In this document: positions 3,519-19,856 of the stretch, one piece after another
How the letters are laid out: the number at the start of each line of letters is the position of its first letter
How positions within the stretch are numbered: position 1 is the first letter of the stretch
Notes under the pieces: model-generated
Told to the model about the DNA's origin: nothing
The model's input: only the letters and a program-made list of their open reading frames with translations
Database searches by the model: none
Program-made: the position numbers and the translations under genes
Assembly: GCA_015065505.1 (NCBI GenBank)
Contig: SVQE01000010.1
Location: 1-52,023 of the forward strand
DNA length: 52,023 nt
DNA from: Oscillospiraceae bacterium
GTDB lineage: Bacteria > Bacillota > Clostridia > Oscillospirales > Acutalibacteraceae
Reading direction: 5' to 3'

Positions 3519-5258
3519 TTATTTGATTTTTTTGTAATTCAAATCATTGTCTTCAAAGAACTCTTCAACCGTGCTTCCGTAGTAGAAATCGCTATAATAA
3601 TACGAAGCGTTGTAATCGACCTTTCCGTCTTTACCGATAATATCCAGGTATTCAACGCAGATATAATATGTTGTAACCTCATTAGTCCAAGAGTCTGTAT
3701 ATTTATATGAATAAACAACATATAAAGCGTTTTTGAAATCAGATTCTTCTGTTTTGTCTTTCAAATCTGCGATATAAGCACAGTTGAAATTGAAATCGGA
3801 ATAAGCGTCATATCCCTCAAAATCATCCACAACAATGGAATATGCATCTTTTCTGAACTTTTTCAAATCTTCGTCCGACATTTTGAAATCCTTTGTGACA
3901 TATTCACCAAGGTCTTCAACGGTGTATGTTTTATCATACTTTGCGATATAAAGATTATATTCATCAATAAGCTTTGCAGTGTCGGAACAGTAGCAATTCA
4001 ATACCACAGTGTCGCCGTTGCGAACATAATTATAATCTTCGGGCAGTTCAAACGAAATCTTTGAAACGATATAATCGTTTTTGCATATGCTGATGGTTAC
4101 ATCATCGTAATACTTAACCGTCATTCCCTTAACGCCGTCAACCTTCTGATTAAGACTGCTGTCAACTCTGGGATATGTTGTTGTGTCTCCGCTTGCTCCT
4201 ACGCAATAGAGAGTTACATATTTGAATGGGTCAATAGTGGTAACTGTTTTAAGAGAATCAACTTTATAGCTCTGCTTTGCTTCTTTGAACTTAATTGTTA
4301 CATCCCCGTTCACATATTCGGCAGATGAGGTTGAAACCTTAACAGTTATTGTGTCGCCGTTTGAGATATCTTCTTTTTTATCTGCAGTGAACAAAAAGGT
4401 GTCATTGTTTAAAAAATCATGATACGAATATGTTTCGTATCCCTTTTTGTTTTTTATTTCTTCATCTACTTTTTTGAACAGACTATCCCAGTCAATTACA
4501 TTAATTAAATCATATTGGTCAATATATGCATATCCGTCATATCCGTGAACAGGAAGCCTATGACCGTAGTATTCATTGTTGCAATAAATCCATTCATCAT
4601 CGTAATCATCGTATTCGCCATCATCATAATAGTAGTCTTCGTCACTCTCTTCCGACTGAGTTTGAAGCTGCTGATCGTTAACATATTCTTCGGTTATGTA
4701 ATCGTTTAAGTTGATTTCGATGGGCTTTTTAAGCTTATGATTGGAATATATTTTTAGTCCGACAATCAAGGCAACAACCGCAACAATAACCGCCGCTAAA
4801 ATTATAGCGATGGTTTTCATTTTGCTTTTGCTCAGATTAAATGTAATTTTGTTGCGCTGTGCGTTTGGCGGAACATTCTGAGGCTGCCCTGTGTAAGCGC
4901 CTGAAGGCTGAACATTGCCGTTTTGAACCGGTCTCACAGGCGCTGCCGGTTGTTGGGGCACTCTTGGCTGCTGAAATACTCTTGTCTGTTGGGATTCATC
5001 CGGCTCTTTGTATTCACCTGAATACGAGTCAAAGCTCTTTTCGATGTCGTTTTCAGGCTGAATATCGCCGTTTTGGGGCGCTTCGTCAGCTATACTTTTT
5101 TCCGGCTGTGCGCTTTCCTGTATGTTTTCTTCGGAATACGGATTAAAGCTGTTTTCGCTGTTGCTTTCCGGCTGTGGCTCTCGGTTAACAGGGGTTCCGC
5201 ATTCGCCGCAGAACAAATCGTCGTCATTAAGTTTAGCACCGCAGTTTTTGCAATTCAT
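3519..5258 (-). CDS. Zinc-ribbon, single-pass membrane protein with large outer domain
   Basis: 579 aa. A zinc ribbon lies at the N-terminus (MNCKNCGAKL...FCGECGTPV, CxxC pairs at residues 3-6 and 17-20). It is followed by a Pro/Gln/Glu-rich linker to about 145, one TM helix at about 149-171 (TIAIILAAVIVAVVALIVG) and an extracytoplasmic region of about 400 residues. That region begins with an Asp/Tyr-rich patch (DEDYYYDDGEYDDYDDE) and may hold two related modules, judging by NLNDYITEEY and DLGEYVTKDF. The topology places the ribbon in the cytosol. It is the last gene of the minus-strand cluster, 18 bases after the ATPase gene, with AAGGAGAATAATT before its ATG. It could be a sensor or tethering subunit; its role is unknown. 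Confidence 0.75.
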   Translation of the reverse strand: MNCKNCGAKLNDDDLFCGECGTPVNREPQPESNSENSFNPYSEENIQESAQPEKSIADEAPQNGDIQPENDIEKSFDSYSGEYKEPDESQQTRVFQQPRVPQQPAAPVRPVQNGNVQPSGAYTGQPQNVPPNAQRNKITFNLSKSKMKTIAIILAAVIVAVVALIVGLKIYSNHKLKKPIEINLNDYITEEYVNDQQLQTQSEESDEDYYYDDGEYDDYDDEWIYCNNEYYGHRLPVHGYDGYAYIDQYDLINVIDWDSLFKKVDEEIKNKKGYETYSYHDFLNNDTFLFTADKKEDISNGDTITVKVSTSSAEYVNGDVTIKFKEAKQSYKVDSLKTVTTIDPFKYVTLYCVGASGDTTTYPRVDSSLNQKVDGVKGMTVKYYDDVTISICKNDYIVSKISFELPEDYNYVRNGDTVVLNCYCSDTAKLIDEYNLYIAKYDKTYTVEDLGEYVTKDFKMSDEDLKKFRKDAYSIVVDDFEGYDAYSDFNFNCAYIADLKDKTEESDFKNALYVVYSYKYTDSWTNEVTTYYICVEYLDIIGKDGKVDYNASYYYSDFYYGSTVEEFFEDNDLNYKKIK

Positions 5259-5276
5259 AATTATTCTCCTTTTCCC

Positions 5277-6590
5277 TTATTTATATTCATCAAATCTGAA
5301 AACAAATGGTTCAACATTTGGCATTCCGATAATTGCCTGACCAATCAAAAGATTATTAACATCCCAATCTTCAATAACGGATGATTCGCGCTGATTTTCA
5401 ACTATTCCTTTGCTTTGGTTTGTCGGAATATACGATTCAATCTTCTGGCATTTGCCGTATCTTTGCTGAATGTATTCTCTTGATTTATCGTCATTAACGC
5501 GGAACATAATTCCTGTTAAAAATCCGCTGAGAATGCTTCTTGCGCGTTCTTCGCCGTAGTTTTCATATATTTGTTCAACGTTCTGAATGCCTATCATAAA
5601 CTTTATGCCAAGGCTTCTGCCGAAATTAACCGCGTCGTCAACATGTTCAAGATTCGGAAGAAGGCTGAACTCATCCGTTATAAAGAACACATTGCCGTCG
5701 CTTTTATTCCTTGATAAAGCCTCTTTTATTGCAAAATCAAACATCAGGCTGTATATCGGGGTTAGCATTTTACCTACGGACAAATCATATTCAATAAATA
5801 TTTTTCTTCCGCCTTTTTGCTTAACAAGATTTTTTAACGAAAGCGTTCCTGTTTTGCAGAAGTTTCCTACAAATACTTCTCTTACAGTCTGGTCAAGAAC
5901 GGATTTAACACCCTGTGTCTGAGCGGATTCATCCTTTTCGATATAGCTTATCATGCCTTTAAGGTCTTTATGCTGTGACAGCATTTCTCTTAAATCGGCT
6001 GTTGTTGAGGAAAAAATGAATTCCATAAGGTTTTTATTTGTTCTCTCAACAGGGGGCTTTTTTCTTATGAAATGCAGTATGCAAGCCATAAACAAATCCT
6101 TAGCGGCATTCGGGAAAAAGATTTGGTTTGTTTTTTGTATTTGCTCGGCAAACAAGCTTTTGCAAATCTCGATAACGCTTTCCATCATATGGTCGCCATA
6201 TGTTATTTCATTGAAGATATTCCAATAATTCAAACCGTTTGGACCTGTTGAAGTGTTATCGTTGCTTATTACAACATCGCCCTCAGAATAAAATTCCTTA
6301 TAGAAATCGCCCTTTGTATCAAAGATAATCATAACATCATCTTTGGTAAACTTTTGGTTTATTCTCGAAACAATCTGAAAGAACGCATTTGTTTTACCCG
6401 TTCCGATTCCGCCTAAAAGCATAATATGCTTGCTCAGTATTCCTGAATCGAAAGGAATAAAAGCTCTGTTTCCCATTCCGTCGGTTCCTGATAAAACGCA
6501 AACGGGCGTTTTTGTATTTATAGGCGGAATGGTTTTCCATAAGCTGTCGCCGTATAAAACACCTGATTTTTGATTTTTATTTACTAACAT
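5277..6590 (-). CDS. VirD4/TraD-like coupling-type ATPase, soluble
   Basis: 437-aa P-loop ATPase. The Walker A motif GGIGTGKT is at residues 60-67 and Walker B VFFITDEFS at 300-308. MIIFDTKGDFYKEF near 87-100 matches the strand after the P-loop in type IV coupling proteins. IGIQNVEQIYENYG near 333-345 resembles the sensor strand of TraD/TraG. FTSK/TraD relatives pump DNA or hand substrates to secretion channels as hexamers. The N-terminal membrane helices usual for VirD4 are missing, so membrane recruitment would need partners such as the flanking zinc-ribbon proteins. GGAGTAAGTAT precedes the ATG. No relaxase, VirB4 or mating-channel gene is in the window, so ordinary conjugation is not supported. 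Confidence 0.82.
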   Translation of the reverse strand: MLVNKNQKSGVLYGDSLWKTIPPINTKTPVCVLSGTDGMGNRAFIPFDSGILSKHIMLLGGIGTGKTNAFFQIVSRINQKFTKDDVMIIFDTKGDFYKEFYSEGDVVISNDNTSTGPNGLNYWNIFNEITYGDHMMESVIEICKSLFAEQIQKTNQIFFPNAAKDLFMACILHFIRKKPPVERTNKNLMEFIFSSTTADLREMLSQHKDLKGMISYIEKDESAQTQGVKSVLDQTVREVFVGNFCKTGTLSLKNLVKQKGGRKIFIEYDLSVGKMLTPIYSLMFDFAIKEALSRNKSDGNVFFITDEFSLLPNLEHVDDAVNFGRSLGIKFMIGIQNVEQIYENYGEERARSILSGFLTGIMFRVNDDKSREYIQQRYGKCQKIESYIPTNQSKGIVENQRESSVIEDWDVNNLLIGQAIIGMPNVEPFVFRFDEYK

Positions 6591-6608
6591 ATACTTACTC
6601 CATTACTA

Positions 6609-9137
6609 TTACATAGACATATCCGATGAATAATCAGGACCGCCGACTTGAGCAGGTCCGTCGTCCTGTGCAGGTGACTCATCCTGAGTGGGCGTGCTGT
6701 CTTGAGCAGGTGACTCATCCTGAGTGGGTGTGCTGTCTTGAGCAGGCTCATTATTCTGCTCAGGCGCATCGTTCTGTTCAGGTTCTTTTCCTGCTTCTTC
6801 AACGCTGCCGTTGCTCTGCTCAGGTTGGTTTTCCTGTTCGGGTTGCTCCCCTGCTTCTTCAGCGTTACCGTTGTTCTGCTCGGGTTGGTTTTCCTGTTCA
6901 GGTTGCTCCCCTGCTTCTTCAACGCTGCCGTTGCTCTGCTCGGGTTGGTCTGCCTGTTCAGGTTGCGCGCCTGCTTCTTCACCGTTACCGTTGTTCTGCT
7001 CGGGTTGGTCTGCCTGTTTGGGACTATCCTCCTGCTCGGGTTCGTCTTCCTGCTCGGGCTCACCCTCCTGTTCGGGTTCATCCTCCTGTTCAGGCTCGTC
7101 ATCCTGTTCAGGTTCGTCTTCCTGTTCTGGCTCGCCCTCTTGCTCAGGACTATCTTCCTGCTCAGGTTCGTCTTCCTGTTCGGGAGCATCTTCCTGCTCG
7201 GGACTATCTTCCTGCTCAGGTTTGCCTTCCTGTTCAGGTTCGCCTTCCTGCTCAGGTTCGTCTTCCTGCTCGGGTTCGTCCTCTTGTTCAGGTTCGTCCT
7301 CCTGTTCAGGTTCATTATTTAGATTCTGTTCACTTTCGGGTGTTTCGGATTGATTCTCATTACCTACACCCGGAAGAGTCGGTGCTTCTTCAGGAGCAGC
7401 TTCCTGCTCGTTTTTCGGAGCTTCAGTTTGATTCTCTTCACCTACGCCCGGAAGAGTCGGTGCCTCTTCGGGAGAAGCTTCCTGCTCGTTTTCCGGAGCT
7501 TCAGTTTGATTCTCTTCACCTACACCCGAAAGAGTCGGCGCTTCTTCAGGAGCAGCTTCCTGCTCAGTTGTTTGTGCGTTTTGAACTCTTACCGGCATAT
7601 CGTATCCGAGTTCCTGAGCAGCGGCAATACGGTGTCTTCCGTTGTCGATGTAATCATATCCGCCATCGGGTCTTTGTTCAACCTGAACCATATTATCAGG
7701 GTCATAATATGCCATTGCTGCATCGTGAAGTTGAGGATCGTTCTTTATCTGTTCGAAAGTTTCACCATTGTTCATACGGTCCTGTATTTCGGGGAGCTTT
7801 TCAGCAAGATTCATATAATCCTGCTTTGTGTTTCCGTGATGATCCCAAAAATGAGGACTGTCCATACCCATGGCAGTATCAGTATTAATATCCGAAGCAT
7901 TAATCTGTCTTACAGGTGTTTTCGATGGCTGTTCAGAAACATCTGACGGCAGAATTTTACCTCTTTGCGAGTTATCATAACCTTGATGGGCATTAAGGTC
8001 TTTTGCCTCATCAATTGCCTCTTCAAGTCCAATTCTTCTTTGACCCGATGAAACATCATAAGCATTCTGAGAAACCGGCCCGGGTTTCGCATCCGGATCG
8101 CTCAGAATATCAAGATTTGTGCAATGCGGTTCGATAGCTCTGTCCGGGTATATAGCACTGTTATTATAATTTTGAAGCTGAGCGCGTGTTGGATTATTGC
8201 AAAAGTATTTGTCACGCTCGCTTTTGTTTTCAGCTCCGCTGCGCGCTAAGCTGTTCCCTGCTTTTTCAATATCGAATTCACCGTTGCTGTTATAGAAATC
8301 GTTATTAATTTTATCATAGTTTGCTTTTGCGTTCTGAGCATCCCTTAACGCGTTTTCTCTTTCAAGAGCGGACGCATTGGGATTATTTAAAGCTTCGTTA
8401 TACTTATTAATTTTGTTATTTAAATCGTCCCTTGCATACTCCCTTGAAATACCTGCAACCTTTTCGCAATCCGCTGTTCTTCCGTCAAGATATGCTTTCT
8501 GAGCATTGCAATAGTTTGAATAGTTTTGTTCGCCCCCCAAATGGCTTGTAAATTCGGGAGATGACATAACCTCGTTAGCAAAGGTGTGGGCATCATATTC
8601 TTCCGGCTGCATAAAGTATTTTATTCCGCTGCCATAATAATTGCCGTACGCCTGATTATCCCTAATTCCCTGCATATTGTTTGCTATTTTGGCATCGGGG
8701 GAAGCAAAGCCGTTTTTGCAATCACTCTGATATGCATGCCTGCCTTCATGAATAACGGTATCCATTCCGTCGAACGGATTCATCCTGCCGTTAATATAGC
8801 CCTCATCCATATACAGCTTATCAGTATTCGGGTCATAATAGCCGACTGCGCCGTTTTCGCGCGCACTTACATCGGAAAAAACAATCTGCCTTTCAGCTCT
8901 TCCCTCTGCCTGAGCCATATGATGCTCCAGCGCCTGGTATGCATTCATTCTTTCCTGATATGAAGCATTGTTCCAGTTATCCGATTTGAATGAATCGAGA
9001 AAATCATAGGAATTTCCTGGTGCGCTGTTTGGCGCTGTATCAGGGGTGCTCAATATTTGATTTTTAACCATCGGCTCATCAGCATTATTAATGCTTGGAT
9101 TATTGTGCGAGCCAAATAAACCATTAAAAATTGACAT
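6609..9137 (-). CDS. HExxH metallopeptidase / ParB-like protein with Glu-Pro repeat tail
   Basis: 842 aa, not assigned to a named family. An N-terminal zincin-like region has VIHEGRHAYQ at about 128-137 (HExxH, His130 and His134). QPEEYDAHTFANEV near 177-190 is a likely third-ligand helix. Residues 230-290 are helical and charged. Residues about 455-520 resemble a ParB/sulfiredoxin-like fold with DNGRHRIAAAQELG then PVRV. From about 525 to the end the chain is low complexity: three copies of a 26-residue unit with APTLPGVGEENQ, over 20 EPEQED-type hexapeptides, larger EAGEQPEQENQPEQ units, then TPTQDESPAQD units. No signal peptide is visible. It overlaps the 104-aa gene (TAATG) and lies 18 bases before the ATPase gene. 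It may be a secreted effector or a scaffold protease. Confidence 0.72.
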   Translation of the reverse strand: MSIFNGLFGSHNNPSINNADEPMVKNQILSTPDTAPNSAPGNSYDFLDSFKSDNWNNASYQERMNAYQALEHHMAQAEGRAERQIVFSDVSARENGAVGYYDPNTDKLYMDEGYINGRMNPFDGMDTVIHEGRHAYQSDCKNGFASPDAKIANNMQGIRDNQAYGNYYGSGIKYFMQPEEYDAHTFANEVMSSPEFTSHLGGEQNYSNYCNAQKAYLDGRTADCEKVAGISREYARDDLNNKINKYNEALNNPNASALERENALRDAQNAKANYDKINNDFYNSNGEFDIEKAGNSLARSGAENKSERDKYFCNNPTRAQLQNYNNSAIYPDRAIEPHCTNLDILSDPDAKPGPVSQNAYDVSSGQRRIGLEEAIDEAKDLNAHQGYDNSQRGKILPSDVSEQPSKTPVRQINASDINTDTAMGMDSPHFWDHHGNTKQDYMNLAEKLPEIQDRMNNGETFEQIKNDPQLHDAAMAYYDPDNMVQVEQRPDGGYDYIDNGRHRIAAAQELGYDMPVRVQNAQTTEQEAAPEEAPTLSGVGEENQTEAPENEQEASPEEAPTLPGVGEENQTEAPKNEQEAAPEEAPTLPGVGNENQSETPESEQNLNNEPEQEDEPEQEDEPEQEDEPEQEGEPEQEGKPEQEDSPEQEDAPEQEDEPEQEDSPEQEGEPEQEDEPEQDDEPEQEDEPEQEGEPEQEDEPEQEDSPKQADQPEQNNGNGEEAGAQPEQADQPEQSNGSVEEAGEQPEQENQPEQNNGNAEEAGEQPEQENQPEQSNGSVEEAGKEPEQNDAPEQNNEPAQDSTPTQDESPAQDSTPTQDESPAQDDGPAQVGGPDYSSDMSM

Positions 9138-9451
9138 TATTTCTTACCAAAATTCATAAAACCGAAGTATTTGCAATAGTTTTCGTCAGTCATAATTTTG
9201 TTGAGCTCATTAAACACATCAAGAACTTCGTAATTCGTGTGTTCGGCGATTTTTGTTAAAGACCATCCCTCATATTCAAAATCAGGGTATTCACCGCTTT
9301 CAAGATAATTGTCAAAAAGCTCCTGTACCTTAGGTACAAAGCCTTCAATCATTTTTTTCCAGACATACATCTCAAAATCCAGATTGCTTTGAGGAACGGG
9401 CGCAACGCCTTTGCTCTTGCAGATAAGTTCTTTTAATTTGCTGTCATCCAT
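9137..9451 (-). CDS. Conserved-looking 104-aa protein, unknown
   Basis: An acidic, helical small protein with several aromatic residues (YVWKKMIEGFVPKVQELF; YPDFEYEGWSLTKIAEHTNYEV). The second stretch could be a small helix-turn-helix-like segment, but this is weak. No cysteine motif or membrane segment stands out. AGAGGTGTTACA precedes the ATG, and its stop overlaps the start of the metallopeptidase gene (TAATG). Translational coupling suggests an adaptor, chaperone or immunity-like partner of the 842-aa protein. That role is inference from position and size only. Confidence 0.66.
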   Translation of the reverse strand: MDDSKLKELICKSKGVAPVPQSNLDFEMYVWKKMIEGFVPKVQELFDNYLESGEYPDFEYEGWSLTKIAEHTNYEVLDVFNELNKIMTDENYCKYFGFMNFGKK

Positions 9452-9463
9452 TGTAACACCTCT

Positions 9464-9492
9464 TTAAAAATGCCTCAGGTCACCCTGAGGCA
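9464..9492 (-). terminator. Intra-cluster terminator or attenuator hairpin
   Basis: TGCCTCAGG / CCTGAGGCA stem with a 4-nt loop, followed on the minus strand by TTTTTAA. It lies between the 371-aa gene and the 104-aa gene, so it may set the ratio of the first gene to the rest of the cluster or split it into two transcripts. Confidence 0.72.
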
Positions 9493-9504
9493 AAATCAAG
9501 TTTG

Positions 9505-10620
9505 TTATTGTTTCCATTTTTCTATTGCGGCATCGCCGAGAGTTCGGATATCATCAATCATTGTTCCAACTTCTTTGATAGCAATATCTGTGTCAACCCA
9601 AGGCAAAACCTCAAGGAATCCTGAGCTTTCTTCTCTGTTCTTTCCGAATAAGAAACCTAATAATGCGATTGGCTGTTCTTTCATAACTTCAATTCCTGAA
9701 AGCGCACCCTTGGTTTTAATCTTAATAACAAGATTCGGAACAAAGGCGATAAGGAAAATGTTTAATAATGCAATAAGAACCATAACCGAAAGAATTATTG
9801 CGCAAATAACAGCAGTAACTTTATTAATATCGCTGCTATAATAGCCTACGTGACCCACTGCTCTTTGAGCCACAGAGCCGCCAATAAAAGAAAGAACAAT
9901 AAGCCTTAAAGTGTAAAACCTGTTATAAGTTTTCTTTTTTCTTAAATATATTGCAAGGAATATCCATGCTCCGATTGCAAGTATGCCAAAAACCACAATG
10001 AAAAATGTTATGATTCCGTTAAATACAGGCGCTCTGTCTCCGTCGCATAAATTTGCGATTAAAAATCCGGGTGTAGCAAACAAGCCTGTAAGTATTATTG
10101 CAATAAGGAAATTGAAAAAATTGAATTCAGGTCTGTTTCGGAATTCAGCACCTGCAATCTCATCAATCTTAAACTCTTCGTGCAGAGTAACCTTGCCCAT
10201 AATGGAACGGCCTGTAGCTCTGAAAATAACTCTTTTGTTTGTAACCTGAAGCTTTCCTTCAGCCTTTGAAAGAGTAATTCTTGTTCTGAGTCTTGCAATT
10301 TTGTATTGCTTTATAGGAATTTCTCCGTCGTTTGCATTAATAACATCGGGAACAATATCTAATCCGCGTTCAAAGCTGTTTCCAAGTGAGTTTCTAACCT
10401 CGTTGGTTGCGTCTCCAACCTGTGAAACGAAATCGTTATATTTGGTTTTAACAGCCTCTTTATCGATTGAAACACCGATAGTATCTCCTTCTTCTTTAAA
10501 ATCAACGGAGCGGTTGTCTGTGGACGGTTTAGGTCTAACAGGAGGAGTGTTGTTGGCGGCTGGGCAAATATGCTGCTGACCGTCAATTAATTCCTGACCG
10601 CATTTTGTACAAAATCCCAT
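9505..10620 (-). CDS. Zinc-ribbon, GRAM/PH-like multi-pass membrane protein
   Basis: 371 aa. MGFCTKCGQELIDGQQHICP is a compact zinc ribbon (Cys4, Cys7, Cys19 and a nearby His). Residues about 105-160 read LQVTNKRVIFRATGRSIMG, the usual bacterial PH/GRAM-type pattern (L.VTNKRVIF) linked to membrane-surface binding. Four predicted TM helices follow: about 167-191, 203-226, 238-255 and 268-294. After these comes a cytosolic C-terminus. AGGAGAGAATTAT precedes the ATG. It heads the minus-strand cluster under a good sigma-A-type promoter. A terminator-like hairpin separates it from the next gene, so it may be co-expressed or only neighbouring. Its function is unknown. Confidence 0.75.
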   Translation of the reverse strand: MGFCTKCGQELIDGQQHICPAANNTPPVRPKPSTDNRSVDFKEEGDTIGVSIDKEAVKTKYNDFVSQVGDATNEVRNSLGNSFERGLDIVPDVINANDGEIPIKQYKIARLRTRITLSKAEGKLQVTNKRVIFRATGRSIMGKVTLHEEFKIDEIAGAEFRNRPEFNFFNFLIAIILTGLFATPGFLIANLCDGDRAPVFNGIITFFIVVFGILAIGAWIFLAIYLRKKKTYNRFYTLRLIVLSFIGGSVAQRAVGHVGYYSSDINKVTAVICAIILSVMVLIALLNIFLIAFVPNLVIKIKTKGALSGIEVMKEQPIALLGFLFGKNREESSGFLEVLPWVDTDIAIKEVGTMIDDIRTLGDAAIEKWKQ

Positions 10621-10652
10621 ATAATTCTCTCCTTTTTTATATATATAATAAC

Positions 10653-10681
10653 ATTATAGTACTAATAATATACAAAGTCAA
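10653..10681 (-). promoter_or_regulatory. Sigma-A-type promoter for the 3519-10620 cluster
   Basis: On the minus strand TTGACT and TATAAT are separated by exactly 17 bases. The -10 box lies about 33 bases before the ATG of the 371-aa gene. The surrounding 80 bases are strongly AT-rich. Confidence 0.75.
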
Positions 10682-10757
10682 TATTTTAATAAACGTGTCA
10701 AAAAAAGCAACAAAATTCATCAATCAGGTGCGGCTCATTGCGGTGCGTGATTAAAAA

Positions 10758-10796
10758 TTAAACGCCGAAAGTCTTTTTTCAGTCTTTCGGCGTTTT
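10758..10796 (-). terminator. Terminator after the HAD/nucleosidase pair
   Basis: AACGCCGAAAG / CTTTCGGCGTT, an 11-bp stem with A- and T-rich flanks, just downstream of the minus-strand gene ending at 10805. Confidence 0.85.
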
Positions 10797-10804
10797 AGTA
10801 TTTA

Positions 10805-11374
10805 TTATTTTATTTGGGTTACGGTGTTCTTTTTAACAACAAAGGCGTGGTTTGCTTTTTCAATCAGCACAGCATCATTTTCGGGCGAATCGGTGTAAAA
10901 ATTCTCAATCGGAATATCGCCGTATTCCCTTTCATACGCCTTAATTTTGTTTTCGCGGATGTTGACAAAAAGGATTTTTCCGCTTTCTCTGTCAACGCGC
11001 GAGGTAAGGTGCCTTTTAATGCCGAGGCGGCGGCAGATTTCCTCAATATTGAAGTCGGGCGAAGCTGTTATAATCAAATCATCATCAGAGCGCAGCTTTT
11101 CGTAAAGCGGCTTGATTTTCTTTTCGTGCTTATCCCAGAACACCTTCGGGTCGTTTTCAAAATCAAAGACGCGAAGGGAATCTTTCTCAACAATCGGAAC
11201 ATAGTGCTCAATAACCTCGCCAAGTGATACATCGCCCTTTTTGTAGCGCGCAAAGGCTTTTAAAACCGTTGGCAGAAGCTTTATCAGCCACGGCTTTCGC
11301 ACAATGTAGAAAAAGAACAAATCAAGCGTGCTTTCGCCGTCGTATATGGTGTTATCAAAATCAAAAACATTCAT
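10805..11374 (-). CDS. HAD-superfamily phosphatase (HAD-IB, SerB-like)
   Basis: 189-aa haloacid-dehalogenase-type phosphohydrolase. Motif I is DFDNTIYDG (nucleophile Asp5, acid/base Asp7), motif II is IITASPD and motif IV is TDSPENDA. A helical cap of moderate size lies between motifs I and II, as in subfamily IB (phosphoserine phosphatase and related polyprenyl- or lipid-phosphate phosphatases). Hydrophobic stretches in the cap (LDLFFFYIV, LIKLLPTVL) hint at a membrane-near or lipid-like substrate. It lies 18 bases downstream of the nucleosidase-like gene on the same strand, so the two are probably one transcript. The substrate is unknown. Confidence 0.82.
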   Translation of the reverse strand: MNVFDFDNTIYDGESTLDLFFFYIVRKPWLIKLLPTVLKAFARYKKGDVSLGEVIEHYVPIVEKDSLRVFDFENDPKVFWDKHEKKIKPLYEKLRSDDDLIITASPDFNIEEICRRLGIKRHLTSRVDRESGKILFVNIRENKIKAYEREYGDIPIENFYTDSPENDAVLIEKANHAFVVKKNTVTQIK

Positions 11375-11392
11375 AGTTCAAATAAATCTTAG

Positions 11393-12154
11393 TTAATAAG
11401 GCAGGTGGTTTTCAAAAAGATATTTTGCAAAGCGCGAGCTTGTATATGCCGCGAATTTCTGATACTTATCGCTTTTTTCGGCATCAGCAAAATCGCAGAT
11501 GCTTTTAATAACTATTGCCTTTGGCTTTGGCTCTGTTGAATTCTGCGCCGCATAAAAAACGCTGTAGGATTCCATATCAAGGCCAACGGTTTTCGGGAAG
11601 AGAGAATGAATCTGCTTGCTTACAACATCGCGGTTTGCAACAACGCTGTTGCCGCACGCCATAGGTCCTATATGAACAAAAAACTCATTATCGGGGTTCT
11701 TTTTTATTCCGTAAATAATTTCAAGAATATCGCTGTCCATATGAATTGCAACAGGTCTCGGAAGAAAGCCGATATCGCCGAAGGTAATCTCGGCATTATC
11801 AGCGCTTACAAACTTACCCGAAGCATAGTTCCAGATAACATCGGGAACTATAACATCGCCGTATATCTGCTCAGCGCCTATTCCTGCAGCAATTCCCGTC
11901 ATAATAAGATATCGGGGTCTGAACTTATTAATAATCTTTGAGGCAAGATGCGATGCCGCCGTCATACCCATTTCTTTTTGCTTTGCGGTTATAACACGGT
12001 GCTGAACGCCATCCTTAACGAATGCTGCTTCGTAATAAATCTGATTATCATCGTGCTGCTTAATTTCTTTCCAGGAAGCATAAAGGCTTTTAACGCTTTC
12101 CTCTTCGATATCAACAGCCGTAACAATCGCAACATCATAAATATAATCCATCAA
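11393..12154 (-). CDS. Nucleoside phosphorylase / MTA-SAH nucleosidase family
   Basis: 253 aa of the PNP/UDP phosphorylase fold. IMTGIAAGIG near 108-117 is the Gly-rich substrate loop, GDVIVPD follows, GLDMESYSVFYAA holds the purine/ribose-binding Met-Glu pair, and ICDFADAEKSDKYQ carries the catalytic Asp region. These features fit MTAN-like enzymes that cleave N-glycosidic bonds. Similar domains also occur in signalling or defence proteins, but here it stands alone without a fused effector domain. The next gene downstream is the HAD phosphatase, so nucleotide or nucleoside salvage is the simplest reading. Confidence 0.8.
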   Translation of the reverse strand: MMDYIYDVAIVTAVDIEEESVKSLYASWKEIKQHDDNQIYYEAAFVKDGVQHRVITAKQKEMGMTAASHLASKIINKFRPRYLIMTGIAAGIGAEQIYGDVIVPDVIWNYASGKFVSADNAEITFGDIGFLPRPVAIHMDSDILEIIYGIKKNPDNEFFVHIGPMACGNSVVANRDVVSKQIHSLFPKTVGLDMESYSVFYAAQNSTEPKPKAIVIKSICDFADAEKSDKYQKFAAYTSSRFAKYLFENHLPY

Positions 12155-12357
12155 GCCACCCCCATTTCGTCATAAAAGAATTTTAACATAACAAACGGGC
12201 ATTTGCAAACGGAAAAATAACTGTTGTTTAATAAAATAACGGCTTTAAACATAGATTCTCAGTGTTCAAATCAATAACTATCGGCTTTTATTTTACAATA
12301 TGCTGTTTCTTTTCAAATAAAAATATGCTAATATACTATTAGACGGGAGGCGATATA

Positions 12358-13977
12358 ATGGCATTAGAAATGAGAACGAGGCAATATGCCGAAACCGACA
12401 CCGATTTAAAAGCACAAAGCATTGATGAGTTTTCAGAATGGCTATATGAAAATCTCAGCGCTGTCGGCATTGAAAAAAGAAGCTGCATGAAAGCCCGCCT
12501 GCTCACCGAGGAATTATTACTTCGCTTGCGCGATAAGTTCGGAGAGGATGTTTGCATTAAAGCAAATATTGAAGGCTCATTTCACCATCAAAGATTGCGT
12601 ATGGTGCTTGACGGAGAGCCGTTTAACCCATTGAGCGAAACGAACGCGGAGCTTGGCGAATGGAATTCTTCGTTGCAAACCGCCGTTGGCTTATACTTCA
12701 AATACACATATTCATGGGGTAAAAACATTCTAAGGCTGAACTTCCCCATGAAGAGAATGAATCAGGTATTAAAAATATTCATATATATTGCCGTTGGCGT
12801 TCTTTTGGCTGTTGCAGGCTTGATGCTTTTGCCGCAAGGAGCGCAAAAAGACCTTACAACATATGTTTTAAAGCCGACCTACACTATCTGGAACAACATT
12901 TTAAATACGATTTCCGCTCCGATTATCTTTTTCACAGTCATAACAACCATGCTGAACACCAAACGCATTGACCGACAGGGCGGAAACGCCTCAAATGTTG
13001 TGCTGCGCTATTTTGTTTTAAGCTTTATAATTACCGCTGCCGCAGCTCTTATTGCAATACCTGTTTTTCTTCCAAATTCTTCCTTTACGCATATCAGAGA
13101 CAGCCTGCTGTCGGATATAACCGGCTATTTTTCAGGCTTTGTTCCATCCAATATAGTTGAACCCTTTTTAACCTCAAACACACCGCAGCTGCTTTTGATG
13201 GCTTTTGTTGTCGGAGCAGCGTTGATAGTGCTTGGCAACAGCGTTGCAGCTGTTAAGGAGATTGTGCGTGAAATCAATATTGTTGGTTTAAAGCTTGCCG
13301 ACTGGGTCAGCAGGCTTGTGCCGCTCTTTGCCGCAATTCTTTTGATTTTCGGAATTTTAAAAGGCGAACAAAAGGTGTTTATCAATATGTGGATACCCCT
13401 GCTGCTTTCTGTAGGGCTTTCCGTTTTTGTTATGGGTGCAATTCTGGTGATTGTCGGCATTATTCTGAAAATAAAACCGCGATTGCTCGGCAAAAAGATT
13501 CAAAAGCCCTTCTACACTGCGCTTAAAACAGGCTCGCTCGATGCGTCATTTGAGCAAACGAAATTTTCCTGTGTTAACAGACTCGGGATTGATTACACCT
13601 ATACCAACATCAGTCTGCCGCAGGGTTTAGTTCTTTATATGCCCGTCAGCGCTATCGGAACTCTGATTTTCACAGTTTACACCGCAAGCGTTTACGGGGT
13701 TAAGGTTGATGCCTTCTGGATTATCTGCACCATAGTTCTTGCTGTTTTGCTTTTTGTTGCAACCCCACCTGTGCCCGGAGCTAACCTGCTTGCATATGTT
13801 GTTTTCTTTTCAGCACTTAAAATTCCTAATGAAGCGCTGATGGGCGCAATGATTTTCGACATTATTTTCGGAATTTTCGCAGGCGCAGGAAATCAGTTCC
13901 TGCTGCAGCTTGAACTTATTTGGCAGGCAAAACGCATCGGACTTTTAGATAAAGAAAAGCTAAGAAAGAAAATATAA
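12358..13977 (+). CDS. RsbW-like ATPase domain fused to SDF dicarboxylate/amino-acid symporter
   Basis: 539 aa. Residues about 1-135 look like a GHKL ATPase of the anti-sigma type: TEELLLRLRDKFG stands at the N-box and MVLDGEPFNPLSE matches the D.G.PF.P G1 box of RsbW-like domains. The usual N-box Asn is not evident, so ATP use is doubtful. From about 142 to the end is a sodium:dicarboxylate/amino-acid symporter (SDF family) with eight or so TM helices, re-entrant loops and the late segment ATPPVPGANLLAYVVFF. GGGAGG stands just before the ATG. It is divergent from the nucleosidase gene and monocistronic, with a terminator at 13985. Regulated uptake of an acidic amino acid or dicarboxylate is inferred. 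Confidence 0.78.
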   Translation: MALEMRTRQYAETDTDLKAQSIDEFSEWLYENLSAVGIEKRSCMKARLLTEELLLRLRDKFGEDVCIKANIEGSFHHQRLRMVLDGEPFNPLSETNAELGEWNSSLQTAVGLYFKYTYSWGKNILRLNFPMKRMNQVLKIFIYIAVGVLLAVAGLMLLPQGAQKDLTTYVLKPTYTIWNNILNTISAPIIFFTVITTMLNTKRIDRQGGNASNVVLRYFVLSFIITAAAALIAIPVFLPNSSFTHIRDSLLSDITGYFSGFVPSNIVEPFLTSNTPQLLLMAFVVGAALIVLGNSVAAVKEIVREINIVGLKLADWVSRLVPLFAAILLIFGILKGEQKVFINMWIPLLLSVGLSVFVMGAILVIVGIILKIKPRLLGKKIQKPFYTALKTGSLDASFEQTKFSCVNRLGIDYTYTNISLPQGLVLYMPVSAIGTLIFTVYTASVYGVKVDAFWIICTIVLAVLLFVATPPVPGANLLAYVVFFSALKIPNEALMGAMIFDIIFGIFAGAGNQFLLQLELIWQAKRIGLLDKEKLRKKI

Positions 13978-13984
13978 GCAAAGA

Positions 13985-14016
13985 AGAGCAAGGAGAAATT
14001 CTTGCTCTTTGTTTAT
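13985..14016 (+). terminator. Terminator of the symporter gene
   Basis: AAGAGCAAG / CTTGCTCTT stem with an 8-nt loop, followed by TGTTTATT. Confidence 0.75.
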
Positions 14017-14121
14017 TAATATATTGTTCTATTATCAATTAACCTATTCTTGCCTCCCTTTCGTCTAAACATATGGAGCGAAGCGACCGGCTAAACCCTA
14101 ACACCTAAAACCTAACAAAAA

Positions 14122-14150
14122 CCACGAAGCGAACGCTTTGTGGCATTTTT
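14122..14150. terminator. Bidirectional terminator beside the decayed peptide gene
   Basis: CCACGAAGCG / CGCTTTGTGG stem with one G-T pair and a two-base loop, flanked by CATTTTT on the right and AACAAAAA on the left. It sits just past the stop of the minus-strand remnant at 14153. The bases between 14017 and 14121 hold a short CCTAA-type repeat and no gene. Confidence 0.65.
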
Positions 14151-14152
14151 GT

Positions 14153-14239
14153 TTATACTCCTACAAACGGAATGTTTTCCGTTTCAAAACTGTCGGGTGT
14201 GTAGGCTGCTCCGCCCTTACAATTGCCGTGCGCAACACA
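14153..14239 (-). pseudogene. Decayed copy of the 43-aa peptide gene
   Basis: Reading the minus strand, the last codons give AAYTPDSFETENIPFVGV and a stop. This matches the end of the intact small gene at 14297 (YTPGTFETDAIPLE). Upstream the frame meets a TAG at 14240-14242, and no start or ribosome binding site is visible, so the N-terminal half is lost. It lies beyond the terminator hairpin of the intact gene and has its own terminator at 14122. This indicates a former tandem copy. Confidence 0.6.
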
Positions 14240-14257
14240 CTAAATTCGTAATTAAGC

Positions 14258-14290
14258 AAAAAACTGCAGCAGCTTTCGCCACTGCAGTTA
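14258..14290 (-). terminator. Terminator after the 43-aa peptide gene
   Basis: AACTGCAG / CTGCAGTT stem with a short GC-containing inner loop and a T-run on the minus strand (complement of GCAAAAAA). Confidence 0.72.
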
Positions 14291-14296
14291 TTTTGT

Positions 14297-14428
14297 TTAC
14301 TCAAGCGGAATCGCATCTGTTTCGAAGGTTCCGGGAGTATAGTCCATCGGGGTTTCCGATGTTGTTATAACATCCTGTGAGGAGGTTATAACAACTTTTA
14401 GAACCGGCTCATTATATTCTATGTTCAT
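14297..14428 (-). CDS. 43-aa acidic peptide, DVITTS type
   Basis: A short gene reading MNIEYNEPVLKVVITSSQ, then DVITTSETP, then YTPGTFETDAIPLE and a stop. TAAGGAGGTAAAACAAT immediately precedes the ATG, and the TAA in that string is the stop of the 1784-aa secreted protein, so the two are translationally coupled. The pattern (a Pro near residue 8, a hydrophobic strand, DVITTS, an acidic end) recalls many unannotated small Clostridia proteins. It has no signal peptide. Its position suggests a tail partner, a precursor-like peptide, or a modifier of the large protein. The decayed tandem copy downstream supports it being a real gene. Confidence 0.7.
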   Translation of the reverse strand: MNIEYNEPVLKVVITSSQDVITTSETPMDYTPGTFETDAIPLE

Positions 14429-14442
14429 ATTGTTTTACCTCC

Positions 14443-17400
14443 TTAGCCAAAGAATGCGTTTGCAGCCTGACCATAGAGATACATTGCTTTTGCAAGTGTT
14501 ACCATATTTGCATTACTGTTGTTTGTCATTATCTTCATAATGGTATTTGCCGTAAATGTAAACGTTGAACCGTTAACAGTAACAGTAATTGTTTTATTCA
14601 TATTTGCCGGCTCAATACCTGAAATGTGAATAACGTTATACCTACCGTTCTTCGCACCCTTTGTAACAGAGAATCTGTTTCCGCCTTTGCTTGTTGCAAG
14701 ACTGCCGCTAACTGTATTAATTTCTGCCGTTGTAAGAAGATTGATTTCAAGGTCTGACTTAACAACAACTGTTGCGCTTGTTATAAAGGTGGGTTTTGAA
14801 TTGAATCCACCAACGCATGAAAAATCAGCACTTGCAACTTCGTCGTAAAATGCATTGCCTACATTGTTCTTTGTTGCCATATTTCCTATATTGTAACCGA
14901 AATATGTCTGAGCTGCTGCTGCGTAGTCGAGAGTTGCCTTTGCAAGTGCTTTAAGATTGCCTGCATATTTGCCCGTGATAATCTGACAGCAGTAATCGTA
15001 AACGCTGTATTCAATAGGTTCGCCTACCCTGTTTGTTCCTGCGTCAGCATCCTCCTGAGAAGGATAAACATTGATTGTGATAGTTTCTGTAATCTGCGCA
15101 GGAGCCTGCAATACGGAAATTTTTCTTGCGCCGTTGTATTCGCTGCTTGGGTCGTTAAGAACAGGAAGATCGGTTATTGCCTTTGTTTCGGTTTTGAAAT
15201 CAGCAGTTTCACTTGCATTACTGTTGTGATTATAGTTAATAACCACATAAGAATCCTCTCCGTAGAAATCAACGTCAAGATAGAAGTTCTGGCTGATTGT
15301 GTCCGTAACTGTTATGCTTGCGCCGTTATCGGGCACTTCGGGAGTTATCGGGTCAACATAAGAATCAACATAAACATCCCCGCATTTTGAACAGGTGTAT
15401 GTTGTATAGCCCTGCTCCGTATAAGTAGGAGGCGTTACAACCGCTTCATAACTGTGATTTACGGGCTCAATTACCCAACTGTCTTTTTCAATTTCATTTT
15501 CTGAATTTGCATCGGAAAAATACTTTTTGCAGGCATCGCATTCCCAGTAAGCGGTGTTGCCGTAACCCTTGCAGGTGGGAGCTGTTGCGCTGACCGCCTT
15601 AAGATGTCCGTTGCTATGGGAGCAGGTTCCGATAATTTCAATATCCGTCCACTCGGTGAGCATCTGCAGATTGCTTGAGTTCTGTCTTGAACAGCAGATA
15701 GCCGCAACGCGCAGTGTTACGCTTTCGCCTGCAGCGGGTGCGCCGCCCGTGATATACCAGTAATACGGTCCGTAGGTTTTATCCTGCCCTGTTACTGCTG
15801 TTGCTTCGCTTGTAAAGTCACCGCCTGCCGTTTCTGCACAGCGAAGCTCGCCGTCAACGGAGCCGTAATGAAGCTGATAGGTGTAGTCGTTATCATTCGT
15901 TCCTTGGAGCGTTACGGTTTTGCCGACTGTGTTGCCGAGGGCTCCGAGATTTTCGGGAGCACTTTCGGAATACGGGAAGAGCTCAATACCCCAGCGAACG
16001 CCGCCGAGCGGAGTAAAGATAAACGGACTGTATTTAATGTACATTCCCGTCTGTTCCACCTTGTCGAGCTTTGAACGGTCAATCTCAAGAGTACCTGTTG
16101 ATACGCCTGTTACATTGTTGTTTGCGCTGCTTTGACAGCTCTTTCTTGTAACACCATTGCTCACGATGTACTGCGTTGCAGGAGTGCCGTTAAGATTGCA
16201 ATCCGAACCTGAGGTTAAATTGTAAATGGTATAGTTAACGCCCGTGCGGTAATCAGAGCTGTTTGTATCGGTTGCCCACATTGTTGCAGTATCGTTATAC
16301 GCGAAGTCGTCGGACTTTTTGAGCTTAAGCTCTGTTTCGCCGTCGGGCTTGTAAACCGTATTGTAACCCGATGCTTTAAAGTAGGTTTCGGGATTTGCGT
16401 TATTCTGCATAACATTCCATCCGCTTGTGATGAATTGGTCGGGGTTTTCCGCCTCAACCTCTATTGCCGCTGCGAGCAGAGAATTGCTGAGCGTAACAAC
16501 TTTACCGTCCGTCAGATACAAATTGTCGCCGAGAGTATCGGATTTGTTATCCTGAATTGTAACAATATCACGAACAGACATTGTATTGGCGTTATAAACA
16601 CCGCCGCCGATACCTGCTGAATGGTTTTCCTGAACCAAGAGCATTGTGGTGGCACGAAGGGTACCGTTATTCATAATACCGCCGCCGTTGGTAGTGGCTT
16701 CGTTTCCGTAAAAAATGTTTCCGTTTCCGCCGAGGTTTGCAGTTGCACCATCAAAAATCTTGAGTCCGCCGCCATTGGTGGCGCTGTTGTTGCTGAACGT
16801 GCTGCCCGATGCGTTAAGCACGCCCTGACGCAGGCATATTCCGCCACCCGTCTCCTCACAGCTGTTGCTGCTGATATCGCAGTTCGTAACGGTGAGCGAA
16901 GCACTGTCACTACCGCCCGACCAAATTGCGCCGCCGTTAGTTTTGGCACTGTTGCCCCATACATCACAATCAGTCAGCGTTGCCGTGCCGTAGTTTGTAA
17001 CAGCACCGCCGCCGCGAACAGTGGTGGTGTTGGAGTTAACAGAAACGTCGCTGAGGGTTATTGTTCCGCTTGAAGTGTTATAAATCGCGCCGGCGTCCTT
17101 TGCAGTGTTTTCGGCAAATTTGCCGCCTGTAACTGTCACCGAGCCAGAGTTATAAATAGCGCCGCCGTTTTCCTTTGCTGTATTATCTTTAAAAGTACAC
17201 TTGTTAAGGGTGAGCGTACCTTCGTTAGCAATAGCGCCGCCATAATAATTAACAGATTCGTTTTCCTTGAAGGTAACGCGGTTTAATGTCGCTGTGCCGC
17301 TTGAGGTGTTGTAGATTGCGCCTCCGTTGTCTCCGCTGTAGTTATCACTGATTTCGACGTCCGTTACGGTAAGCGTTCCTTCGTTATAAATTGCGCCACC

Positions 17401-19797: not shown

Positions 19798-19856
19798 ACA
19801 ATCACTCCTTAAAAGCATTTATATACATAATTTTTATAATACAGTAATACATATTA

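Follow-up and report, generated by a model that had tools for sequence, protein, structure and literature searches.

A candidate polymorphic toxin system of Clostridia with exchangeable cargos, a C-terminal tag and a VirD4-like ATPase

Five minus-strand genes on a contig from an Oscillospiraceae bacterium of the family Acutalibacteraceae (SVQE01000010.1, assembly GCA_015065505.1), here named A to E in their order along that strand, fairly probably encode a polymorphic toxin system of reversed polarity, in which an immunity protein (B) precedes a toxin (C) that ends in a C-terminal signal and is exported by a VirD4-like ATPase (D). The stretch analysed, referred to as the window, comprises 52,023 nucleotides of this contig. 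The parts of this chain differ in firmness. That B and C are by nature a toxin-immunity unit is very likely, the toxicity itself being predicted; docking of the tag of C on D, a prediction from sequence, is likely; and export of the cargo by D would be probable to about the same degree as the chain as a whole. The preliminary description of this DNA had seen in it a membrane-linked system, not described before, with a VirD4-like ATPase at its centre and distinct from a standard conjugative module, with the 842-residue protein C as a candidate substrate. In these respects it holds, and all five open reading frames (ORFs) lie on the minus strand where it placed them (Table 1).

Under the proposed mechanism, C would be a toxin of three parts: at the N terminus a variable toxic domain, then a long linker that is mostly acidic and probably disordered, and at the C terminus a short tag. 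B, encoded just before the toxin domain, would be the cognate immunity protein or, in some loci, perhaps an adaptor. D would recognise the tag, grip the linker and thread the cargo, C terminus first, through the membrane, where D itself would be held by A, with its PH-like domain, and by zinc-ribbon membrane proteins such as E; the membrane insert of A and E-like proteins are candidates for the channel. The target would presumably be a competing bacterium. Immunity gene and toxin domain would be exchanged together, upstream of a fixed end made of linker, tag and ATPase.

D is assigned on its sequence to the VirD4/TrwB-type ATPases. As the preliminary description had recognised, it matches this family, with TrwB_AAD_bind (PF10412) above the Pfam cut-off over residues 43-431 (E 2.1e-46); its profile matches the TrwB chain 1e9r (E 1.9e-16), and G63, G65, K66, D306 and E307 are invariant in 24 homologues. 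An N-terminal transmembrane segment is typical of VirD4/TrwB coupling ATPases, though not universal. D belongs by sequence to the ATPase family of TrwB, TraD and VirD4 but differs from these coupling proteins in several respects: a hydropathy scan finds no membrane-type segment in the window copy or in 52 homologues; Pfam models at their own cut-offs find no relaxase, and no integrase either, among ten window proteins; and the 19 NCBIfam matches of D, mostly to coupling proteins, all fall below their own cut-offs. D also matches the PADLOC model mad8 (E 8.3e-14) and, weakly, HerA models, and its profile also finds 8j4u (E 3.8e-6), the chain of an antiphage HerA that bears the name nucleoside triphosphate hydrolase.

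One scan of a genome collection for D gave 49 loci, mostly in metagenome-assembled Clostridia and many from animal guts; the comparisons rest on 48 distinct loci (numbered with an L, genomes with a G) after duplicate contig fetches had been removed. Three D-carrying records are labelled Cloacimonadota, Chloroflexi and Bdellovibrionota and may be binning errors. Carriers include a named Peptoniphilus isolate (L046), and related forms occur on Paenibacillus and Curtobacterium plasmids, the former encoding D, a homologue of A and a protein with an acidic repeat. No relative was seen in the viral contigs or phage records searched. In a haloarchaeal plasmid (L101) and in Burkholderia (L102), D relatives stand beside annotated relaxases; in L101 (6964-9251, plus strand) the D relative directly follows the relaxase, likely a conjugation pair.

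On these comparisons, A and D are the fixed parts of the arrangement. Full-length D is present in 2 of 37 genomes of the window's genus, and D at E<=1e-40 in 9 of 393 genomes of the class. A is matched at E<=1e-6 in 13 of the 393, six of these matches covering only the first 70 positions or fewer, at the zinc-ribbon end; the remaining seven comprise six long matches and one split match (G234). Six genomes carry both A and D, one carries A alone (G247) and three carry D alone (G225, G339 and G442). In 27 loci D is a close homologue and the upstream sequence reaches at least 5 kb; in 23 of them A is encoded on the strand of D and within 7 kb upstream of it, a grouping that exceeds chance. The exceptions are an A at 7.5 kb (L021), a weak A match downstream (L050) and two loci without A (L025, L032). 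Left out of this count are 17 of the 48 loci, whose upstream sequence is shorter than 5 kb, and, after these, four clade-2 loci, all without A; four loci with D partial or cut off (L057, L059, L060, L061) are excluded from it and from the tag-versus-D counts, and three with no D in the ORF list (L036, L052, L062), together with L086 (genome G234, no D recovered), enter no cargo count. The A-D pair is patchy and accessory, yet linked. Expected co-occurrence of all five families has been borne out for these two, with A in six of the nine D-bearing genomes and a single A without D; most loci lack the families of the 842-residue and 104-residue proteins C and B, and it is this separate occurrence that is the informative point.

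A second branch of D (L051, L054, L088, L089, L090, L094, L095, L097) has no detected A; there D is followed by a protein of 344-469 residues, to which a Pfam scan covering six loci assigned no family above cut-off. By eye, Hsp70-like genes are also present in L051, L054 and L094. Three loci of this branch (L090, L095, L097) carry cargos with an HExxH motif, and L090 and L097 also a gene of the family of B.

What stands between A and D varies, from no gene to several depending on the locus, and B and C appear to be swapped. In an alignment of the 31 genes at or near D the columns are on average 11% identical, and the N-terminal domains of the cargos are unrelated across loci: HExxH peptidase, ParB/sulfiredoxin-like, Tox-GHH (above cut-off in L033, L088 and L089) and GH-E (above cut-off in L048). 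In the Pfam scan of the window proteins, A, B and C have no family above cut-off. The N-terminal domain of C is on its sequence an HExxH metallopeptidase of predicted activity, with H130, E131, H134 and E180 invariant in ten HExxH cargos. The second domain of C is the main domain of the cargos of L029, L035 and L053; its predicted model is of middling confidence, with the eight best Foldseek matches all in the ParB/sulfiredoxin superfamily but each at E >0.05, and ParBc_2 weakly matches one of five members of the domain family (E 0.17). Both domains of the window's C are putatively toxic. C has no membrane-type segment, nor have 35 of 36 cargos. Ahead of the tag, 29 of 39 cargos have a net acidic stretch (controls, 49 of 437), and in 28 of 39 this stretch contains few hydrophobic residues (controls, 5 of 437). 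Given cargos without membrane-type segments and linkers that are acidic and hydrophobic-poor, Sec is an unlikely route of export, and most cargos probably have a disordered C-terminal part. Among individual cargos, one of 178 residues (L027, 9447-9983, plus strand), with a start of the form ...AYFWSG...GG.TLE, weakly matches ADP-ribosyl cyclase (E 0.024) and has no family above cut-off, and in L021 an 84-residue ORF ending SSGMGM (9507-9761, plus strand), a tiny second tagged protein, lies between the 1293-residue cargo, which ends SGQSM, and D.

The ends of the cargos are alike in spite of their unrelated starts. With one group of ATPases they read YDYYNGYGY, DYDHYSGYGM or GYDYYNSYGM, and with another GTGMGM, SSGMGM, DQDMGM or SSDMSM. 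The last seven residues have a mean pairwise score of 0.40, compared with -6.24 (standard deviation 0.42; maximum of 500 draws, -4.73) in other genes of the same loci, and with one cargo per family the score is -1.22 against -6.21 (standard deviation 0.55). Tail patterns, written after the tails had been seen, match 35 of 43 genes adjoining D and 8 of 557 controls. A held-out model, trained for each tail only on cargos without detectable homology to the one tested and with a D at least 62% identical, places 21 of 35 tails, that of the window included, above all 485 controls and 28 of 35 in the top 5%; it omits 8 of the 43 loci, which have under four usable training tails, and three of its misses are neighbours of D that are not cargos. 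Three loci in which the neighbour of D is not a cargo (L037, L044, L049) were taken out of the tag-versus-D pairs and kept as misses in the pattern and model tests. On the sequences compared, the tag varies with the ATPase and is independent of which cargo bears it. Unrelated cargos score a mean of 10.9 when their D proteins are at least 70% identical (88 pairs) and -0.75 when these are less than 62% identical (534 pairs), and homologous cargos with D less than 62% identical score -0.9 (9 pairs, one of which, L026-L017, rests on a truncated, linker-like cargo). The rank correlation is 0.256, reached in 7 of 2000 permutations; these tag-versus-D figures overstate certainty because the pairs are not independent.

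B, in turn, follows the cargo domain, as immunity genes do. It was assigned in 16 loci of the 31-cargo set, and a 17th (L016) was found later. A six-member profile of the window's B family (B104), run on the ORFs of the window, L014-L062 and L084-L097, matched eight ORFs, the L016 and L090 members falling outside it. All eight lie directly upstream of an HExxH cargo, so that 8 of 10 HExxH cargos are preceded in this way; the remaining two, in L019 and L095, are preceded by a DUF2225-like gene (in L095 by eye). Likewise, SMI1_KNR4 (SUKH-1) is found above cut-off directly upstream of all three Tox-GHH cargos (L033, L088, L089). It is because B104 occurs only before HExxH cargos, and SUKH before Tox-GHH, that B is held to follow the cargo. 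The L039 cargo is preceded by a gene that matches IFS, which confers immunity to a streptococcal NADase, at 27.3 bits, below the cut-off of 30. SUKH and IFS-like partners are known mainly from exported toxins, and B of the window is, on its position and family, the predicted immunity protein of the HExxH cargo. A further small gene family, recognised partly by eye from a VGYPLG...EY.VW-like sequence, stands before differing cargos in L029, L041, L045, L056, L084 and L099 (L029/L056 and L041/L045 are related by phmmer); it is perhaps an adaptor and not an immunity protein.

Two Curtobacterium plasmids (L099 and L103), which extend the arrangement into Actinomycetota, present what may be a natural swap. 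Both have the gene order membrane-protein gene, A, B, C, D, with the cargo read as a plus-strand frame where the L099 record annotates an opposite-strand gene and L103 is unannotated. D is 97% identical between them, A 91% and the upstream membrane protein 84%, and the cargos end GQSWGGGWA and GQNWGGGWG, 10 of 11 aligned residues being identical; B is 27% identical and the first 220 cargo residues 28%. This is the pattern that toxin-immunity exchange before a fixed export end leaves, though ordinary fast divergence of both genes would look alike.

Several observations weigh against this interpretation. Family-based support for immunity amounts to three SUKH proteins and the one IFS match below cut-off, and several loci are without B (L031, L032 and L058, for example). 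The "toxin" label extrapolates from a minority, because most cargo domains are without a known family: Pfam at E<=0.01 on 31 whole cargos gave GH-E as the one toxin domain, together with two weak matches of a peptidase-like kind, and Tox-GHH in L033 was seen only when the first 139 residues were scanned alone. Tail similarity is partly compositional, because the linkers share composition: moved upstream by 10 and 20 residues, the comparison still scores -1.27 and -3.16. None of the four D-adjoining genes in L094-L097, which were new after the patterns had been fixed, matches a tail pattern, nor does the HExxH gene of L095, one gene further up, which ends EMDNGLSM; the tails of L087, L089 and L090 also miss, and those of L084 and L088 match, both having been seen beforehand. 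The acidic protein of the Paenibacillus plasmid is without such a tag, and a VirB4 of the CD1110 family (NF045971) is above cut-off in 6 of 16 carriers.

Of the putative membrane partners, A gives no GRAM match by sequence, the domain that had been proposed for it, while its predicted model does resemble PH domains and has the PH-like/GRAM fold; the model and the hydropathy scan agree that four membrane-type helices interrupt this domain. E has Zn_Ribbon_1 above the Pfam cut-off, as the preliminary description had it, one membrane-type segment and a large C-terminal part, and B, like C and D, has no such segment. One strong relative of E (L014) and five weak ones occur among the loci, and a zinc-ribbon-pattern protein with one or two membrane-type segments lies within six genes in 18 of 27 loci; E is an accessory component. 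As to spacing, B and C overlap by one base and 18 bases separate both C from D and D from E, so that the reported 18-base gaps between the last four genes are right except between B and C. A single sigma-A-type promoter had also been proposed. A promoter-like site does precede A, but it is weak evidence because the region holds 27 such sites where 23.3 are expected, and a single transcript over the five genes is uncertain because a terminator-like hairpin sits between A and B.

Table 1. Features of the five-gene locus, in positions of the window
Feature	Position	Strand	Remarks
Gene A	9505..10620	-	ORF of 371 aa
Parts of A	N-terminal zinc ribbon; PH-like domain, about residues 86-166 and 293-362; four membrane-type helices between, residues 168-292	-	Predicted model; zinc ribbon by eye
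Gene B	9137..9451	-	ORF of 104 aa
Gene C	6609..9137	-	ORF of 842 aa
C residues 45-216, HExxH metallopeptidase-like domain	8490..9005	-	HEGRH at 8736-8750
C Glu180, candidate third ligand	8598-8600	-	50 residues past HEGRH
C residues 405-522, ParB/sulfiredoxin-like domain	7572..7925	-	Common to L026, L029, L035, L053
C residues 523-832, acidic repeat linker (EPEQEDEPEQEG...)	6642..7571	-	Predicted local distance difference test (pLDDT) mostly <50 in modelled residues 523-590
C last 10 residues GPDYSSDMSM, predicted tag	6612..6641	-	Scores higher than each of the 485 control tails; model trained on six unrelated cargos
Gene D	5277..6590	-	ORF of 437 aa
D Walker A	6387-6413	-	Intact motif
D Walker B Asp306-Glu307	5670-5675	-	Intact motif
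Gene E	3519..5258	-	ORF of 579 aa
Promoter-like site TTGACT-N17-TATAAT	10653..10681	-	11/12 consensus matches; consensus only
Terminator-like hairpin, A-B gap (53 bases)	9471..9492	-	9 pairs, then TTTTT

With respect to secretion, neither a type VII secretion system (T7SS) nor a resident CD1110-type conjugation channel is a general requirement, because WXG100 was found in 0 of 10 carrier genomes (a control search was positive in 2 of 14 genomes, Bacillus subtilis included) and NF045971 was not found in 9 of 16. The VirB4 search covered NF045971 and AAA_10, the latter being above cut-off in 4 of 10 carriers; the window's genome, 89% complete, has a match to neither. Among the ten window proteins, Pfam finds no VirB3, VirB6, VirB8 or other channel subunit, though divergent ones could be missed. 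The exchangeable domains on a constant C-terminal tag and the adjacent, putatively cognate immunity genes (not in every locus) are those of a polymorphic toxin system, and the locus is filed as polymorphic-toxin-like, not as a type IV secretion system (T4SS), because the VirB4 searches found none in the window's genome and, altogether, none in 9 of 16 carriers.

The present arrangement was not found in the open-access literature searched. Its likeness to polymorphic toxin systems (Zhang et al. 2012), T7SS LXG toxins included, lies in swappable toxin domains, adjacent immunity genes and the SUKH, Tox-GHH and GH-E families; as far as the accessible part of the 2012 survey goes, type III secretion systems and T4SSs are apparently unused by classical polymorphic toxins (PMC3482391), and in an excerpt of another source a VirD4-binding domain is counted among the marks of toxin delivery (PMC12419801). 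The closest functional parallel is the X-T4SS of Xanthomonadales (X-Tfe/X-Tfi), whose effectors, according to the available text, bind VirD4 by a C-terminal domain and whose immunity gene usually lies upstream (PMC6536674). It differs in that all twelve class A subunits are present and the XVIPCD is about 120 residues long; the tag described here is of about 7-10, most carriers are Clostridia, and in 9 of 16 carriers the search found no VirB4 of the CD1110 family. In a Gram-positive setting, a Streptomyces alarmone-synthetase toxin adjoins TrwB, TrwK and TrwI (PMC12691689) and so resembles the present locus in linking a toxin to a TrwB-type gene, but that locus has TrwK, a VirB4 homologue by the reference list of the same paper, and the accessible text describes no common tag or A protein. 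The 89K T4SS of Streptococcus suis is likewise similar in its claimed VirD4-dependent export of a protein, a subtilisin-like protease, and different in its six core VirB/VirD4 subunits and single protease, with no polymorphic cassette described in the part of the source available (PMC12857230).

Other explanations of these loci must be considered. D might serve intracellular defence, with a HerA/VirD4-like ATPase that senses foreign DNA and holds tagged effectors that kill the infected cell, B restraining them. The mad8, HerA and 8j4u matches speak for this, and docking of effectors by their C-terminus on an ATPase suits defence as well as export; but D is far closer to TrwB_AAD_bind, and a conserved membrane protein, SUKH/IFS-like partners and divergent B and C beside a 97% identical D favour intercellular conflict, so that we regard the defence explanation as unlikely. 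Somewhat more unlikely still is a decayed or unusual mobile element, in which D would act as the coupling protein of conjugation and C, as a "polyvalent" protein, would enter recipients with the DNA. Zincin and ParB-like domains, combined in C, are frequent in the polyvalent proteins of conjugative elements and phages according to the accessible text of PMC5512222, which describes no paired immunity genes or ATPase-specific tags for them, and two relatives of D do adjoin relaxases; against this, no relaxase or integrase was found among the ten window proteins scanned, no CD1110-family VirB4 in 9 of 16 carriers and no relative in the viral and phage records, and the paired immunity-type genes and the ATPase-specific tag would be left unexplained.

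There is little probability in a fixed five-gene apparatus, the form in which the preliminary description combined these proteins, with a peptidase that processes envelope proteins or is exported with them. The genes are close and co-directional, and A and D are conserved together, but B and C vary by locus and look like a cargo-specific partner and an exchangeable cargo, E is barely conserved, and the hairpin follows A. Slightly less probable again is that the tag similarity merely reflects shared low-complexity linkers and that the genes of these loci are a mixed set around an ATPase that does something else. The unusual linker composition and the weaker similarity reaching 20 residues upstream would be expected from such an artefact, yet the residue-position model holds with homologous cargos left out, the Curtobacterium tag is kept though the cargo start has diverged, and the tag tracks D.

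Elsewhere in the window, a 1791-residue protein (14443-19818, minus strand) has by eye a signal-peptide-like start, GGAIYN-type beta-helix and other repeats and a surface or secreted look, and a 924-residue protein (30063-32837, minus strand) resembles, also by eye, an MmeI-type restriction-methylase; a 934-residue gene similar to the latter lies near the system in L096 (12444-15248, within the region 10444-15248).

If export of toxins by D is correct, these loci would represent an unrecognised weapon of gut bacteria, with a short portable secretion tag and many candidate toxin and immunity domains. A 2025 review, in the part available, treats dedicated effector export by Gram-positive T4SS-type machinery as a long-standing question, with Streptococcus suis 89K apparently the first case (PMC12857230), and the present locus is a compact candidate for such export in gut Clostridia. 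More tentatively, and perhaps doubtfully, it may belong to a new secretion machine, mainly of monoderms, that combines a cytosolic VirD4-like ATPase, a PH-like anchor, no VirB channel, substrate choice by a tag of about seven residues with a disordered initiation region, for which the selection of ssrA-tagged proteins by unfoldases offers a parallel, and swappable toxins. Were such a VirB-free, tag-reading machine real, exporters that read a tag on their protein substrates would form a wider family, with the conjugative coupling ATPases as only one of its branches.

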